64,000 nt of DNA from Methylobacterium nodulans ORS 2060 (GTDB lineage: Bacteria; Pseudomonadota; Alphaproteobacteria; Rhizobiales; Beijerinckiaceae), in assembly GCF_000022085.1 (NCBI RefSeq), contig NC_011894.1:6446501-6510500 (forward strand), in the 5' to 3' direction. The notes under the pieces were generated by a model. The model made no database searches, was not told the origin of the DNA, and saw only the letters and a program-made list of their open reading frames with translations. Both the position numbers and the translations under genes were made by a program. Below are positions 43,804-59,471 of the stretch, piece after piece; position 1 is the stretch's first letter; each line of letters starts with the position of its first letter.

Positions 43804-43820
43804 ATGCTGCGATGCAGCAT
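43804..43820. promoter_or_regulatory. PhaR-type operator candidate upstream of the sRNA
   Basis: ATGCTGCGATGCAGCAT is a palindrome containing CTGC-GAT-GCAG, matching the CTGC-N3-GCAG pattern reported for the polyhydroxybutyrate regulator PhaR/AniA. It lies just before the presumed 5' end of the MmgR-like RNA. A related site (TTGC-AGT-GCAG) lies at the same relative place before the second sRNA copy. Confidence 0.6.
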
Positions 43821-43827
43821 GGCACAA

Positions 43828-43925
43828 AGCAGATGCACCGCCGCGATGGCGTCGCAGCGGTGCTTGCCCTCCATGGGCGTTTCCTCCCTAGACTCCGGGC
43901 CGCCCGCGAGGGCGGCCCTTCTTTT
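43828..43925 (+). ncRNA. mmgR: MmgR-like (alpha-r8/suhB family) small RNA, copy 1
   Basis: The region has three parts in the order known for this family: a 5' hairpin (GCACCGC/GCGGTGC, about 43834-43862), a single-stranded linker with the invariant 10-mer TTTCCTCCCT (43880-43889), and an intrinsic terminator (GGGCCGCCC 43897-43905 with GGGCGGCCC 43910-43918, then TTCTTTT). In Sinorhizobium MmgR limits polyhydroxybutyrate storage and phasin levels; the 10-mer can pair with ribosome binding sites. Here a phasin gene begins 267 bases downstream on the same strand. The 5' end is estimated. Family identity is from motif recognition, not from a covariance-model search. Confidence 0.8.
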
Positions 43926-44127
43926 ATTCACCCGGCAGGAACGCGCCGATCGGCGAAATTGCTGTGTTTTCGTAATTGGTTGGAGCTTCACCTTGAGCCC
44001 AGTTGTCGGCGTTCAAGCACCAGCCGGTCAGCATGTCAGGACTCACCGTTCCTTCACACCGGGCGCATAGACACCTTGGTCATTATCTCTTTTGGCCTAA
44101 TCCGAACGGTTGGGTTGCATCTCATTG

Positions 44128-44136
44128 TGCGTCGCA
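44128..44136. promoter_or_regulatory. Possible PhaR half-site pair upstream of the phasin gene
   Basis: TGCGTCGCA (TGC-N3-GCA) within TTGTGCGTCGCAGCAT keeps the core of the CTGC-N3-GCAG pattern and lies about 55 bases before the phasin start, a common place for repression of phaP by PhaR. The match is imperfect (GTGC for CTGC). Confidence 0.4.
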
Positions 44137-44191
44137 GCATCTACGGTGCGCCGCACAAGAAGGCGGTGCGTACCCCCGTGGAGAAACGTCT

Positions 44192-44542
44192 ATGACGATC
44201 CAGAACCCCTTCGAGGTCCCCGCCGAGCTGCGCAACTTCGCCGACAAGAGCCTCGCGCAAGCCCAGCAGGCCGTCGCGGCCTTCTTCCAGAACACCCGCA
44301 AGCTCAACGAGACCGTCCAGTCCTCGTTCAAGACCGCCCAGCTGCCGGTTAGCGTCGCTTACGCCCGCAGCCTCGACTTCGCCGAGCAGAACGCCAACGC
44401 TGCCTTCGCGGTCGCCCATAAGATCATCCGCGCTCGTGATCTGCAGGAGGCCGGTCAGGTCCAGGCGGAGTACCTCCGTGCTCAGTTCGACACGTTCCAG
44501 GCTCAGGCCAAGGAAATCTATTCGGTCGCCAAGGCCGCGTAA
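44192..44542 (+). CDS. phaP: Phasin (polyhydroxybutyrate granule coat protein)
   Basis: The 116-residue all-helical protein starts MTIQNPFEVPAELRNFADKS and continues LAQAQQAVAAFFQNTRKLNE, SLDFAEQNANAAFAVAHKII and YLRAQFDTFQAQAKEIYSVA, the usual pattern of small alphaproteobacterial phasins (Phasin_2 family). It coats storage granules and controls their size. The ATG at 44192 follows GTGGAGAAA. Upstream are a PhaR-like core site and an MmgR-like sRNA. Two further helical proteins follow on the same strand, the next after about 120 bases. Confidence 0.92.
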   Translation: MTIQNPFEVPAELRNFADKSLAQAQQAVAAFFQNTRKLNETVQSSFKTAQLPVSVAYARSLDFAEQNANAAFAVAHKIIRARDLQEAGQVQAEYLRAQFDTFQAQAKEIYSVAKAA

Positions 44543-44662
44543 CCTGGTGCGACTGGCGAGAGCCCGCGCCTCCCGGGCGCGGGCCCGCCTCTGACGTGAG
44601 AGAGCGGCGACATGGCAGCGCGACGCGGTAGGCGTTCAACATCAGCCCAACGGGGAAGCTCC

Positions 44663-45256
44663 ATGACCGAGGCAGTGGCTCCTGGCGAGCAAATCACCGA
44701 GGCTGGTGACGAGCAGGCTGTTCTGCCGCCGACCGAGGGTGAGCAGACGTCGCTCGAAGCTGTCCCCGTCTACGACCCTGAGCCGTTGCCCGCGCAGGAA
44801 GAGGCTCCTGAGGCTCTCATGTCAGAAGCGGCGCAATCCGAGGCTGATGAGCCGGCGAGCGCTTCTGAGATCATCGCGGCGGAGCCAGAGCCGATCGCGG
44901 TTCACTCGCTCGAAGTGAGCGCGCCAGAGATCTCGGGCGAAATACCCGCTCCTGCGCCAGCCACGAACGAGCATGCGGTTGCCGGTGTGAGTGCCGCCCC
45001 CCAGCCTGCAGCCACTCAGGCGAGCGTGTACTCTATCGCTACTCGTCTTCTCGAGAAGGCAGGTGCGCAGCAGAGGATCTGGTTCTCCTACGCTGAGAGC
45101 GAGCTTAAAGCCAAGCTTACTTACGGTCGCGTTCTATCCAAGTCGCGGACGCCGGTCGATGTGATTTTAGCGTCCAATGCTGAGTATCTCCGTGCGCTTG
45201 TGGCGAGCAGCAATGTACTGAGTGAAATTGTAGCGGATGGAATCACGCTGGCATAA
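44663..45256 (+). CDS. Phasin-like protein with long acidic Pro/Glu-rich N-terminal tail
   Basis: The 197-residue product starts at the ATG at 44663 (GGGGAAGC upstream). Residues 1-125 are disordered-looking and rich in Glu, Ala and Pro. The C-terminal part is helical: YSIATRLLEKAGAQQRIWFS, YAESELKAKLTYGRVLSKSR, TPVDVILASNAEYLRALVAS, resembling the phasin helix pattern of the preceding gene (SRTPVDVILASNAEYLR recalls the phasin C terminus). The tail may be a surface brush on granules, but that is a guess. Codon usage is slightly less GC-rich than the chromosome core. Confidence 0.65.
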   Translation: MTEAVAPGEQITEAGDEQAVLPPTEGEQTSLEAVPVYDPEPLPAQEEAPEALMSEAAQSEADEPASASEIIAAEPEPIAVHSLEVSAPEISGEIPAPAPATNEHAVAGVSAAPQPAATQASVYSIATRLLEKAGAQQRIWFSYAESELKAKLTYGRVLSKSRTPVDVILASNAEYLRALVASSNVLSEIVADGITLA

Positions 45257-45300
45257 ACGCCAACGGCTGACCTGATACATTGCTCTGACTGAGACATGCC

Positions 45301-45582
45301 GTGCTCATGTCTTGCCTTGAAGCGACGTTGCTGCTGATAGAGGCGCAGAAGGTTGTTGAACTTCGGCTCATGAAGCTGGCCCGGGGCGGCTTGGAAGCCT
45401 GGCTCGAGGCTCAGCTCATGGTGAGCGAGAAGGTGAGTGCCGCCTTTGAAGCAGCCGGCATGCTGGTGGTGGGCAAGGGGTTCGAAGCCGTCATTGTCCG
45501 CTATCGCGAACATGTGGCTGCAAACACGCAGAGATTATCTACGGCAACCACTTCTGATCTGCACCCGCAAGCTTGGTCGTGA
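45301..45582 (+). CDS. Small helical protein of the phasin cluster
   Basis: The 93-residue frame opens at GTG 45301, with an ATG at 45307 as the alternative start. It encodes LEATLLLIEAQKVVELRLMK, LARGGLEAWLEAQLMVSEKV, SAAFEAAGMLVVGKGFEAVI and VRYREHVAANTQRL, an amphipathic helical protein of a type often seen near phasin genes in Methylobacterium relatives. No catalytic residues are apparent. Granule association is inferred from context only. Confidence 0.6.
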   Translation: MLMSCLEATLLLIEAQKVVELRLMKLARGGLEAWLEAQLMVSEKVSAAFEAAGMLVVGKGFEAVIVRYREHVAANTQRLSTATTSDLHPQAWS

Positions 45583-45716
45583 GCGATGCGCCACAGCTCG
45601 CTAGTGCGCCGAAGTGAGATGGTCGGGTGGCAGGCTGTTCGTGGCGTCCACCGAGAAGCTCAAGTCCCAGAGGATTACCCCCAGTCCGCACTAAAGCTGG
45701 TTCACAAGGGTGTATC

Positions 45717-45860
45717 ATGAAGCCGTCCGCTAGAGCGCTCATCAAGTGCCATGTGCTGCGTGATCTGGATCGCGCTCTAGCGCAACGCAACCTAGAGCGC
45801 GTGATGATTTTACTTGGTCGTCAGCTTAGGCTTGAAGAGTTCGGTTCCGCCGCAGCATAG
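45717..45860 (+). CDS. Small hypothetical protein (47 residues)
   Basis: The ATG at 45717 follows AAGGGTGTATC. The product MKPSARALIKCHVLRDLDRA continues LAQRNLERVMILLGRQLRLE EFGSAAA and is predicted helical and basic. It lies 134 bases after the phasin-cluster gene on the same strand. Balanced composition makes it more credible than a random frame, but nothing identifies it. Confidence 0.4.
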   Translation: MKPSARALIKCHVLRDLDRALAQRNLERVMILLGRQLRLEEFGSAAA

Positions 45861-45997
45861 CAGTCCGCTACGCCGCAGCAGGTGCCGGCGGGCTTGCCCG
45901 CCGACCGTGTCGAAACTGGCAGGATGATCGTGCATCGCGCGCCGTCAGAACCCAGTCCGTAAGCGACCTCGGCCCCGAGGTTGAAGCACTCGAGCAG

Positions 45998-59176: not shown

Positions 59177-59187
59177 TTGCAGTGCAG
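59177..59187. promoter_or_regulatory. PhaR-type operator candidate upstream of the second sRNA
   Basis: TTGCAGTGCAG (TTGC-AGT-GCAG) within ATGTTGCAGTGCAGCGT differs by one base from the CTGC-N3-GCAG pattern and aligns with the perfect site upstream of the first sRNA copy. Confidence 0.45.
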
Positions 59188-59194
59188 CGTAATA

Positions 59195-59293
59195 AGTAGT
59201 GGCCAGATCGCGATCGCGTCCCGATCTGGCAGCCCTCCTTTGGGCGTTTCCTCCCTAGACTTCGGGCCGCTCCGCAGGGGCGGTCTTTTTTTG
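59195..59293 (+). ncRNA. MmgR-like (alpha-r8/suhB family) small RNA, copy 2
   Basis: The same plan as the copy at 43828: a 5' hairpin (CCAGATCG/CGATCTGG, about 59202-59228), a GCCC-TCCTTT-GGGC mini-stem, the invariant TTTCCTCCCT (59247-59256) directly followed by AGACTTCGGG, and a terminator (GGCCGCTCC with GGGGCGGTC, then seven T, 59265-59292). Between the mini-stem and the terminator the two copies are nearly identical, while their 5' hairpins differ in sequence but not shape. The 5' end is estimated. Confidence 0.78.
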
Positions 59294-59471
59294 TCTAGCT
59301 CGCCAATTTCTATGGCCGTACAGCAGCTTGGATCGCGCTGCAAGTGTGCTGGTGCAACGATTTATCTAGGCCTGATGGCCTAATCCGCCGGCCGGTGGGT
59401 CGTGATCGGCTTACTAGGAACCGTTGTTGTTCTGCCGCAGCGCGACTGCGGACCCACAGTGAGAGTGGAGC

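Follow-up and report, generated by a model that had tools for sequence, protein, structure and literature searches.

A PhaR-type dyad, an alphaR8 small RNA, and a phasin gene adjoin one another in Methylobacterium nodulans ORS 2060

Introduction

In Sinorhizobium meliloti, PhaR associates with PHB granules and represses phaP1 and phaP2 (PMC12542648; PMC8401924). In EMSA, it binds the promoters of mmgR, phaP1, and phaP2; phaP1 and phaP2 have two palindromes each, and loss or mutation of the palindrome abolishes PhaR binding (PMC12542648). The published PhaR motif of S. meliloti has the core YGCRNYGCR (PMC12542648). Deletion of mmgR increases the PhaP1 and PhaP2 proteins and leaves their mRNAs unchanged (PMC8401924), and a review words the effect of MmgR on phasins as "preserves synthesis" (PMC7143759). 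In Methylobacterium extorquens, two phasin genes are up in a phaR mutant (PMC6520949); the same paper cites an earlier phaR mutant study in which phasin transcripts were unchanged.

MmgR belongs to the alphaR8 family of small RNAs (sRNAs). According to PMC12559287, direct base-pairing has not been identified for MmgR. The paper also names as open whether alphaR8 siblings are redundant or separate and whether all of them act in carbon metabolism. Here we describe a locus of M. nodulans ORS 2060 in which an alphaR8 sRNA, PhaR-type dyads, and a phasin gene lie close together, and compare it with these systems.

Results

An alphaR8 sRNA upstream of a phasin gene

A sequence-only reading of the window (the whole stretch of 64,000 nucleotides that was analysed) had described a palindrome, a hairpin, a 10-mer, and a strong terminator, followed after a 267-base gap by a phasin gene on the same strand. 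All of these elements are found as described. The features of the locus are as follows.

43807-43817, no strand assigned: CTGC-GAT-GCAG dyad CTGCGATGCAG, presumed PhaR operator of the sRNA promoter (exact match)
43835-43863, + strand: 5' hairpin of the sRNA (MFE fold and covariation)
43859-43933, + strand: sRNA core, suhB/MmgR (alphaR8; RF00519)
43866-43878, + strand: weak stem-loop of 4 pairs, 5' of the 10-mer (fold)
43876-43887, + strand: GGCGUUUCCUCC, seed predicted to pair with the phasin ribosome site (duplex and permutation tests)
43880-43889, + strand: 10-mer TTTCCTCCCT, unpaired in the MFE structure
43897-43925, + strand: intrinsic (Rho-independent) terminator of the sRNA (stem 43897-43918, 9 G-C pairs, T-run)
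44128-44136, no strand assigned: TGCGTCGCA, the farther of two PhaR-type dyads in the phasin promoter (distal site), 64 nt upstream of the ATG
44147-44155, no strand assigned: TGCGCCGCA, the nearer of two PhaR-type dyads in the phasin promoter (proximal site), 45 nt upstream of the ATG
44180-44190, + strand: GGAG (Shine-Dalgarno) and the adjoining AAACGTC, where the sRNA is predicted to pair
44192-44542, + strand: phasin gene, 116 residues, ATG at 44192 (PF09361)

When the whole window is searched with cmscan, the suhB/MmgR model RF00519 matches at 43859-43933 (+) with 65.9 bits, above the gathering score of 41, in agreement with the suhB identity that had been proposed. The E value is 2.3e-11 for the window against all Rfam, indicating that the sRNA is not due to chance. 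As is characteristic of alphaR8 sRNAs, the 10-mer (UUUCCUCCCU, 43880-43889) is single-stranded and follows a weak hairpin. The predicted seed overlaps the 10-mer and the 3' arm of that weak stem. The predicted fold of 43828-43925 has an energy of -52.9 kcal/mol (z -3.4), and 2 of 200 shuffles are equally good. The sRNA is predicted to be transcribed from a promoter at the dyad 43807-43817; a scan for the sigma-70 consensus found no -35/-10 pair.

The genome has three matches to N-formylglutamate amidohydrolase (C7:6060000, 1108955, and 6073811), none of them close to the window sRNA. MmgR proper is linked to this gene. Such linkage is usual for single-copy species and for SisA (PMC12559287). 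As all three genes are distant, the window sRNA is a member of alphaR8, and synteny does not make it the MmgR orthologue.

The gene downstream of the sRNA matches PF09361 (Phasin_2) with 43.9 bits, above the cut-off of 24.9. The match to the NCBIfam equivalog TIGR01985 is a close miss (91 bits; cut-off 99.7), with an E value of 7.8e-26 over profile positions 1-108 of 123. No relative with an E value under 0.7 was found in the PDB by sequence. There are 13 Phasin_2 matches in this genome. The frames behind the phasin gene (44612-45256 and 45301-45582), which lie in a duplicated block, have no family match, and frame 44612-45256 was accordingly rejected as a second phasin.

The 5' hairpin is supported by covariation

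The 77-position Rfam model starts past nearly all of the 5' hairpin. In an alignment of 48 sRNAs (MAFFT, structure not used), which omits weak and repeat-borne copies as well as those that lack the 5' hairpin and thus speaks for the hairpin class only, 9 of the 12 pairs of the 5' hairpin show two-sided changes. Taken together, the 5' hairpin and the small stem contain 82 two-sided cells versus 29.8 in shuffles, and all nine changing pairs are in the 5' hairpin. None of 500 shuffles is as high on any of five measures, and slid controls are all far lower. The small stem (43866-43878) is paired in 97% of the cells over the 48 copies and shows no two-sided change. By eye, copies of the L032/L038 kind do not show the 5' hairpin. 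Since the predicted fold of MmgR consists of three stem-loops according to the review PMC7143759, our claim is that the RNA is longer and contains a covarying hairpin; in hairpin count it may equal MmgR.

The window sRNA is one of many copies

The genome (8.84 Mb, 8 contigs) contains 32 suhB matches at E <= 0.001, 21 of which are over the cut-off. In the genus, suhB is found in 111 of 111 genomes, with 2 to 30 matches each under stricter filters and the most in this genome; these per-genome counts are complete, and the places of the copies are those of the best 150 or so matches. The window copy is therefore one local pairing among 32 family matches, and the idea that it is the MmgR with its own target has to be abandoned. 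A second suhB copy lies in the window itself (59225-59300, 59.6 bits), with the dyad TGCAGTGCA at 59178 and an IS66-type transposase frame downstream (60251 onward).

Thirteen of the 32 matches lie in repeats. Seven are in longer repeats (L042, L043, L044, L046, L048, L053, and L054; 72-94% identical, with up to ~2.8 kb of flanks alignable), and four frames of L048 have no Pfam match. The other six are in a short repeat family. Three of these repeat-borne matches score over the cut-off, so that 18 of the 21 over-cut-off copies are not in repeats. The short repeat is dispersed over 10 places, with 79-100% identity to the query over 103-241 nt. It resembles the promoter and sRNA of the window copy, and the sRNA copies nearest to it are that of the window and one on contig C5. 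Its six suhB matches (L041, L045, L047, L049, L051, and L052) lack the dyad at the usual place.

The likeness of these ten places to the window copy and the C5 copy, together with the missing dyads of the six suhB matches, would be expected if the window copy were itself a decaying member of a dispersed repeat family with no function at the locus. We consider this very unlikely. The window copy retains the dyad, the hairpins, an intact 10-mer, the terminator, and a score of 65.9 bits, and the sRNA is better conserved between species than the spacer. Compared with Methylobacterium sp. WSM2598 (G049) and a second relative (G050), identity is 85-93% in the sRNA parts, 72% in the dyad region, and 60-63% in the spacer between sRNA and phasin gene.

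PhaR-type dyads precede the sRNA family and the phasin genes

The dyad at 43807-43817 has exactly the CTGC-N3-GCAG form of a PhaR-type operator, as the sequence-only reading noted, and lies at a distance from the sRNA that is shared in the family. The dyad core begins at -51 relative to the Rfam core; within the range -59 to -45, no other single position is used as often in the family. At -51, G049 and G050 have the relaxed dyad TGCGCCGCA and not the strict CTGCN3GCAG. The claim that the bare CTGCN3GCAG is rare was rejected, as one occurrence was found versus 3.09 expected in 64 kb; the significance of the dyad is its place, not the bare motif.

In this genome, YGCRNYGCR starts at -60 to -26 of the sRNA core in 13 of the 21 over-cut-off copies (background 4.0%) and in none of the 11 sub-cut-off copies (background 3.7%). 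The same is found in 29 of 41 copies from other genomes (background 3.8%), which were hand-chosen from 137 matches, come from G030, G047, G049, G050, and G109, and are mostly high-scoring, one (L116) being under the cut-off. For the stricter TGCRNYGCA, the counts are 8 of 21 here (background 0.7%) and 21 of 41 elsewhere (background 0.4%). Over these 62 copies, 33 dyads start at -59 to -45 and 13 at -29; the latter are a weaker class of evidence, because their second half-site runs into the first bases of the 5' hairpin. The 64-kb window contains eight TGCRNYGCA, three of them at the sRNA-phasin locus (43808, 44128, and 44147) and three around the second sRNA copy.

Dyads are also placed regularly upstream of phasin genes. 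Among five close homologues, window included, a dyad is located at -63 to -65 from the ATG in all five and at -44 to -46 in four, L096 being the one without. Across the order, 29 of 30 phasin genes have a dyad no more than 160 nt away, versus 144 of 934 background stretches. Together with the EMSA in S. meliloti, this ties the dyad to phasin control and to PhaR. By analogy, PhaR would bind the dyads of the window.

The PhaR homologue that had been anticipated is present in the genome (PF07879, 107.7 bits, C7:6036459), ~454 kb from the locus. The locus thus contains a presumed PhaR site and not the regulator, and the suggestion that sRNA, regulator, and target are assembled together holds for the sRNA and the phasin gene but not for the regulator gene. 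A shorter PHB_acc_N match (40.9 bits) is located at C7:2419283, ~6 kb from the phasin gene C7:2425662, which has no upstream sRNA.

Another palindrome, TGTGCG-N4-CGCAC, occurs at 24 distinct sites in the genome (32 matches, with overlapping strand pairs merged). It lies just upstream of five suhB copies (C1:405728, C6:15074, C7:6611065, C7:7127304, and C7:7567300).

To some extent, these observations accommodate a different reading, in which a regulator other than PhaR acts on the dyads and the sRNAs exert general carbon or nitrogen control through the anti-Shine-Dalgarno 10-mer, phasin being no special target. TGTGCG-N4-CGCAC marks another subset of copies. In Caulobacter, SisA of the same family represses many targets, and SisA-D have no promoter motif in common (PMC12559287). 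Moreover, no phasin is encoded by 20 scanned frames from 17 loci beside other copies, taken from 36 flanking frames that were picked by length and GC3, so that some may be wrong, and that leave out two downstream phasins already known; one of the 20 is a short-chain dehydrogenase of unstated kind and three have no match. However, the dyad is the published PhaR consensus and precedes 29 of 30 phasin genes of the order, and we regard general control by another regulator as improbable.

Adjacency of sRNA and phasin gene

The phasin ATG (44192) is 267 nt past the sRNA end (43925), both on the + strand. Assuming an intergenic share of 100% or 15%, 0.008-0.08 sRNA/phasin pairs within 500 nt are expected in this genome, and two are seen. 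The probability of at least two by chance is 3e-5 to 0.003, and that of at least one is 0.008 to 0.075. One pair alone could therefore be luck; two pairs together with conservation are less so.

A phasin homologue search that drew on 110 of the 111 genomes, G049 being the one left out, returned the best 150 or so matches. Among the matches listed, the closest homologues are C1:406049 (94%) and C7:2425662 (78%) in this genome and C1:6280340 (77%) and C1:1416593 (74%) in G050. A further close homologue (75%) is encoded by WSM2598. An sRNA on the same strand is located directly upstream in four of these six close phasins (window, C1, G050:1416593, and WSM2598) and was not found directly upstream at C7:2425662 and G050:6280340. 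The same-strand order and the spacing are kept in G049 and G050, with DNA ~74% identical to G050. The pairs in these two genomes are orthologous to the window pair.

The second pair of this genome is on contig C1 (458 kb). Here, a different sRNA copy, whose flanks are unrelated, is followed after 203 nt by a 1.86-kb block (L100 5979-7836) that is 98.3% identical to window positions 44120-45978 and includes the phasin gene, indicating that the juxtaposition arose a second time. The C1 sRNA is of a different subfamily, its nearest relative being the C6 copy, and has TGTGCGCTTACGCAC in place of the PhaR-type dyad. The second pairing is thus not the same module and has another kind of promoter.

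Elsewhere, the arrangement is absent. No adjacent sRNA is found at 11 of the 13 phasin matches of this genome or at 56 of 58 phasin matches in eight sRNA-rich relatives, the remaining two being the orthologues. Likewise, all 30 phasin loci of the order and all 10 further Methylobacterium loci that were scanned lack an sRNA within 1.5 kb. The sequence-only reading had not met a description of the module as adjacent genes. We found no published description of sRNA-phasin adjacency in the open-licence literature, a body that leaves most subscription papers outside; the link between PhaR and mmgR, in contrast, has been demonstrated by EMSA in S. meliloti (PMC12542648).

The adjacency might itself be functional, either through co-located and co-timed synthesis or through terminator read-through that gives the phasin mRNA an sRNA leader. 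The order and spacing kept in G049 and G050, the renewed juxtaposition with a different sRNA copy on C1, and the presence in four of the six close phasins, window included, are what such a function would predict, whereas the absence at the great majority of the phasin loci above is not. The C1 copy has another palindrome instead of the PhaR-type dyad. The sRNA has a strong, conserved terminator (over 43897-43920, 22 of 24 bases are the same in G049, and likewise in G050). In addition, a single pair may be due to chance (P 0.008-0.075), and the neighbouring sRNA in G050 has a weaker seed. We therefore think a function of the adjacency itself unlikely. The adjacency is real but probably secondary, a by-product of many copies, and regulation would work in trans.

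Predicted pairing between sRNA and phasin mRNA

In the predicted duplex, the sRNA contributes GGCGUUU-(C)-CUCC and the phasin leader GGAG-AAACGUC, such that the pairing extends beyond the Shine-Dalgarno sequence. The sRNA could thus pair with the phasin ribosome site, which is partly paired in one predicted fold. With the anti-Shine-Dalgarno part held constant, the first seven letters of the seed can be arranged in 140 orders, and no order but the native one reaches its energy with the window phasin (0.007). The permutation fraction is at or below 10% at 13 of 24 Methylobacterium phasin sites (34 start sites minus 10 near-duplicates removed by hand) and at 14 of 127 control start sites, which are unverified frames at the loci of this genome; relatedness among the 24 sites makes the Fisher P of 8e-6 an overstatement.

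Plain duplex energy gives a different picture. By this measure, the 34 phasin sites have a small advantage over 128 controls (means -14.8 versus -13.7, P 0.02), but the window phasin is not special, being matched by 64% of 74 start sites and 38% of the 128 controls. We do not accept plain duplex energies as proof of pairing. The pairing of seed and ribosome site, also suggested by the sequence-only reading, is in line with the seed permutation.

Across the order, with phasins drawn from the best 150 or so matches, the fraction is at or below 10% at 1 of 30 phasins versus 2 of 31 controls, and the mean fractions (0.58 for phasins and 0.43 for controls) are inverse to expectation for pairing. 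Direct pairing is accordingly a hypothesis at the level of the Methylobacterium lineage. In G050, a seed change in the neighbouring sRNA weakens the predicted pairing with its own phasin (-13.0 versus -15.3 for the canonical seed), and no compensating change was found in this sRNA/phasin pair.

Discussion

We regard the locus as a sound variant of a known storage-control circuit, one that is restricted to its lineage. With moderate confidence, we favour a reading in which PhaR represses phasin and also a multi-copy sRNA family that damps phasin translation, PHB relieving both; adjacency is probably not required. In the absence of PHB, PhaR would repress the sRNA and the phasin gene. When PHB builds up, it would draw PhaR off, and sRNA and phasin would both be transcribed. 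The sRNA and its sister copies would then pair via GGCGUUU-(C)-CUCC with GGAG-AAACGUC and cap phasin translation. The resulting circuit would be an incoherent feed-forward loop.

The array of sRNAs that share an operator is the more interesting part, compared with the adjacency. Tentatively, and with slightly less than even confidence, we suggest that Methylobacterium has a large, dispersed alphaR8 array of 2-30 matches per genome, in which most copies of the genomes examined have a PhaR operator at a fixed promoter position, a PHB-sensing repressor frees many sRNAs, a second subset is under TGTGCG-N4-CGCAC, and copies have come to lie beside phasin at least twice. If this is true, sibling sRNAs released together would cap the translation of phasin and of other genes. 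Most copies examined have a PhaR-type dyad in front of them, which predicts that they are regulated together by PHB state and bears on the redundancy of alphaR8 siblings. With the predicted phasin pairing, there is also a specific candidate for a direct target of an alphaR8 sRNA.

The locus resembles S. meliloti MmgR in the sRNA core, the 10-mer, the terminator, the PhaR-type dyad in the promoter, and the link to phasin and PHB. The two differ in length, MmgR being 77 nt (PMC8401924) and the window sRNA a predicted ~98 nt that include a covarying hairpin 5' of the Rfam model. They also differ in number and place: MmgR is described as the sole alphaR8 sRNA of S. meliloti (PMC12559287), whereas the genome studied here has 32 matches, with one copy beside a phasin gene. 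Dosage thereby departs from the S. meliloti wiring, as many sibling sRNAs here have the PhaR-type operator in common. SisA-D of Caulobacter crescentus are similar in that several alphaR8 siblings with one 10-mer occur in a single genome. SisA-D have no common promoter motif according to PMC12559287, whereas the PhaR-type dyad is common to 13 of the 21 over-cut-off copies here. The Qrr sRNAs of Vibrio, as portrayed in PMC12559287, are likewise scattered, co-regulated siblings, with an RNA and a regulator unrelated to those of the window.
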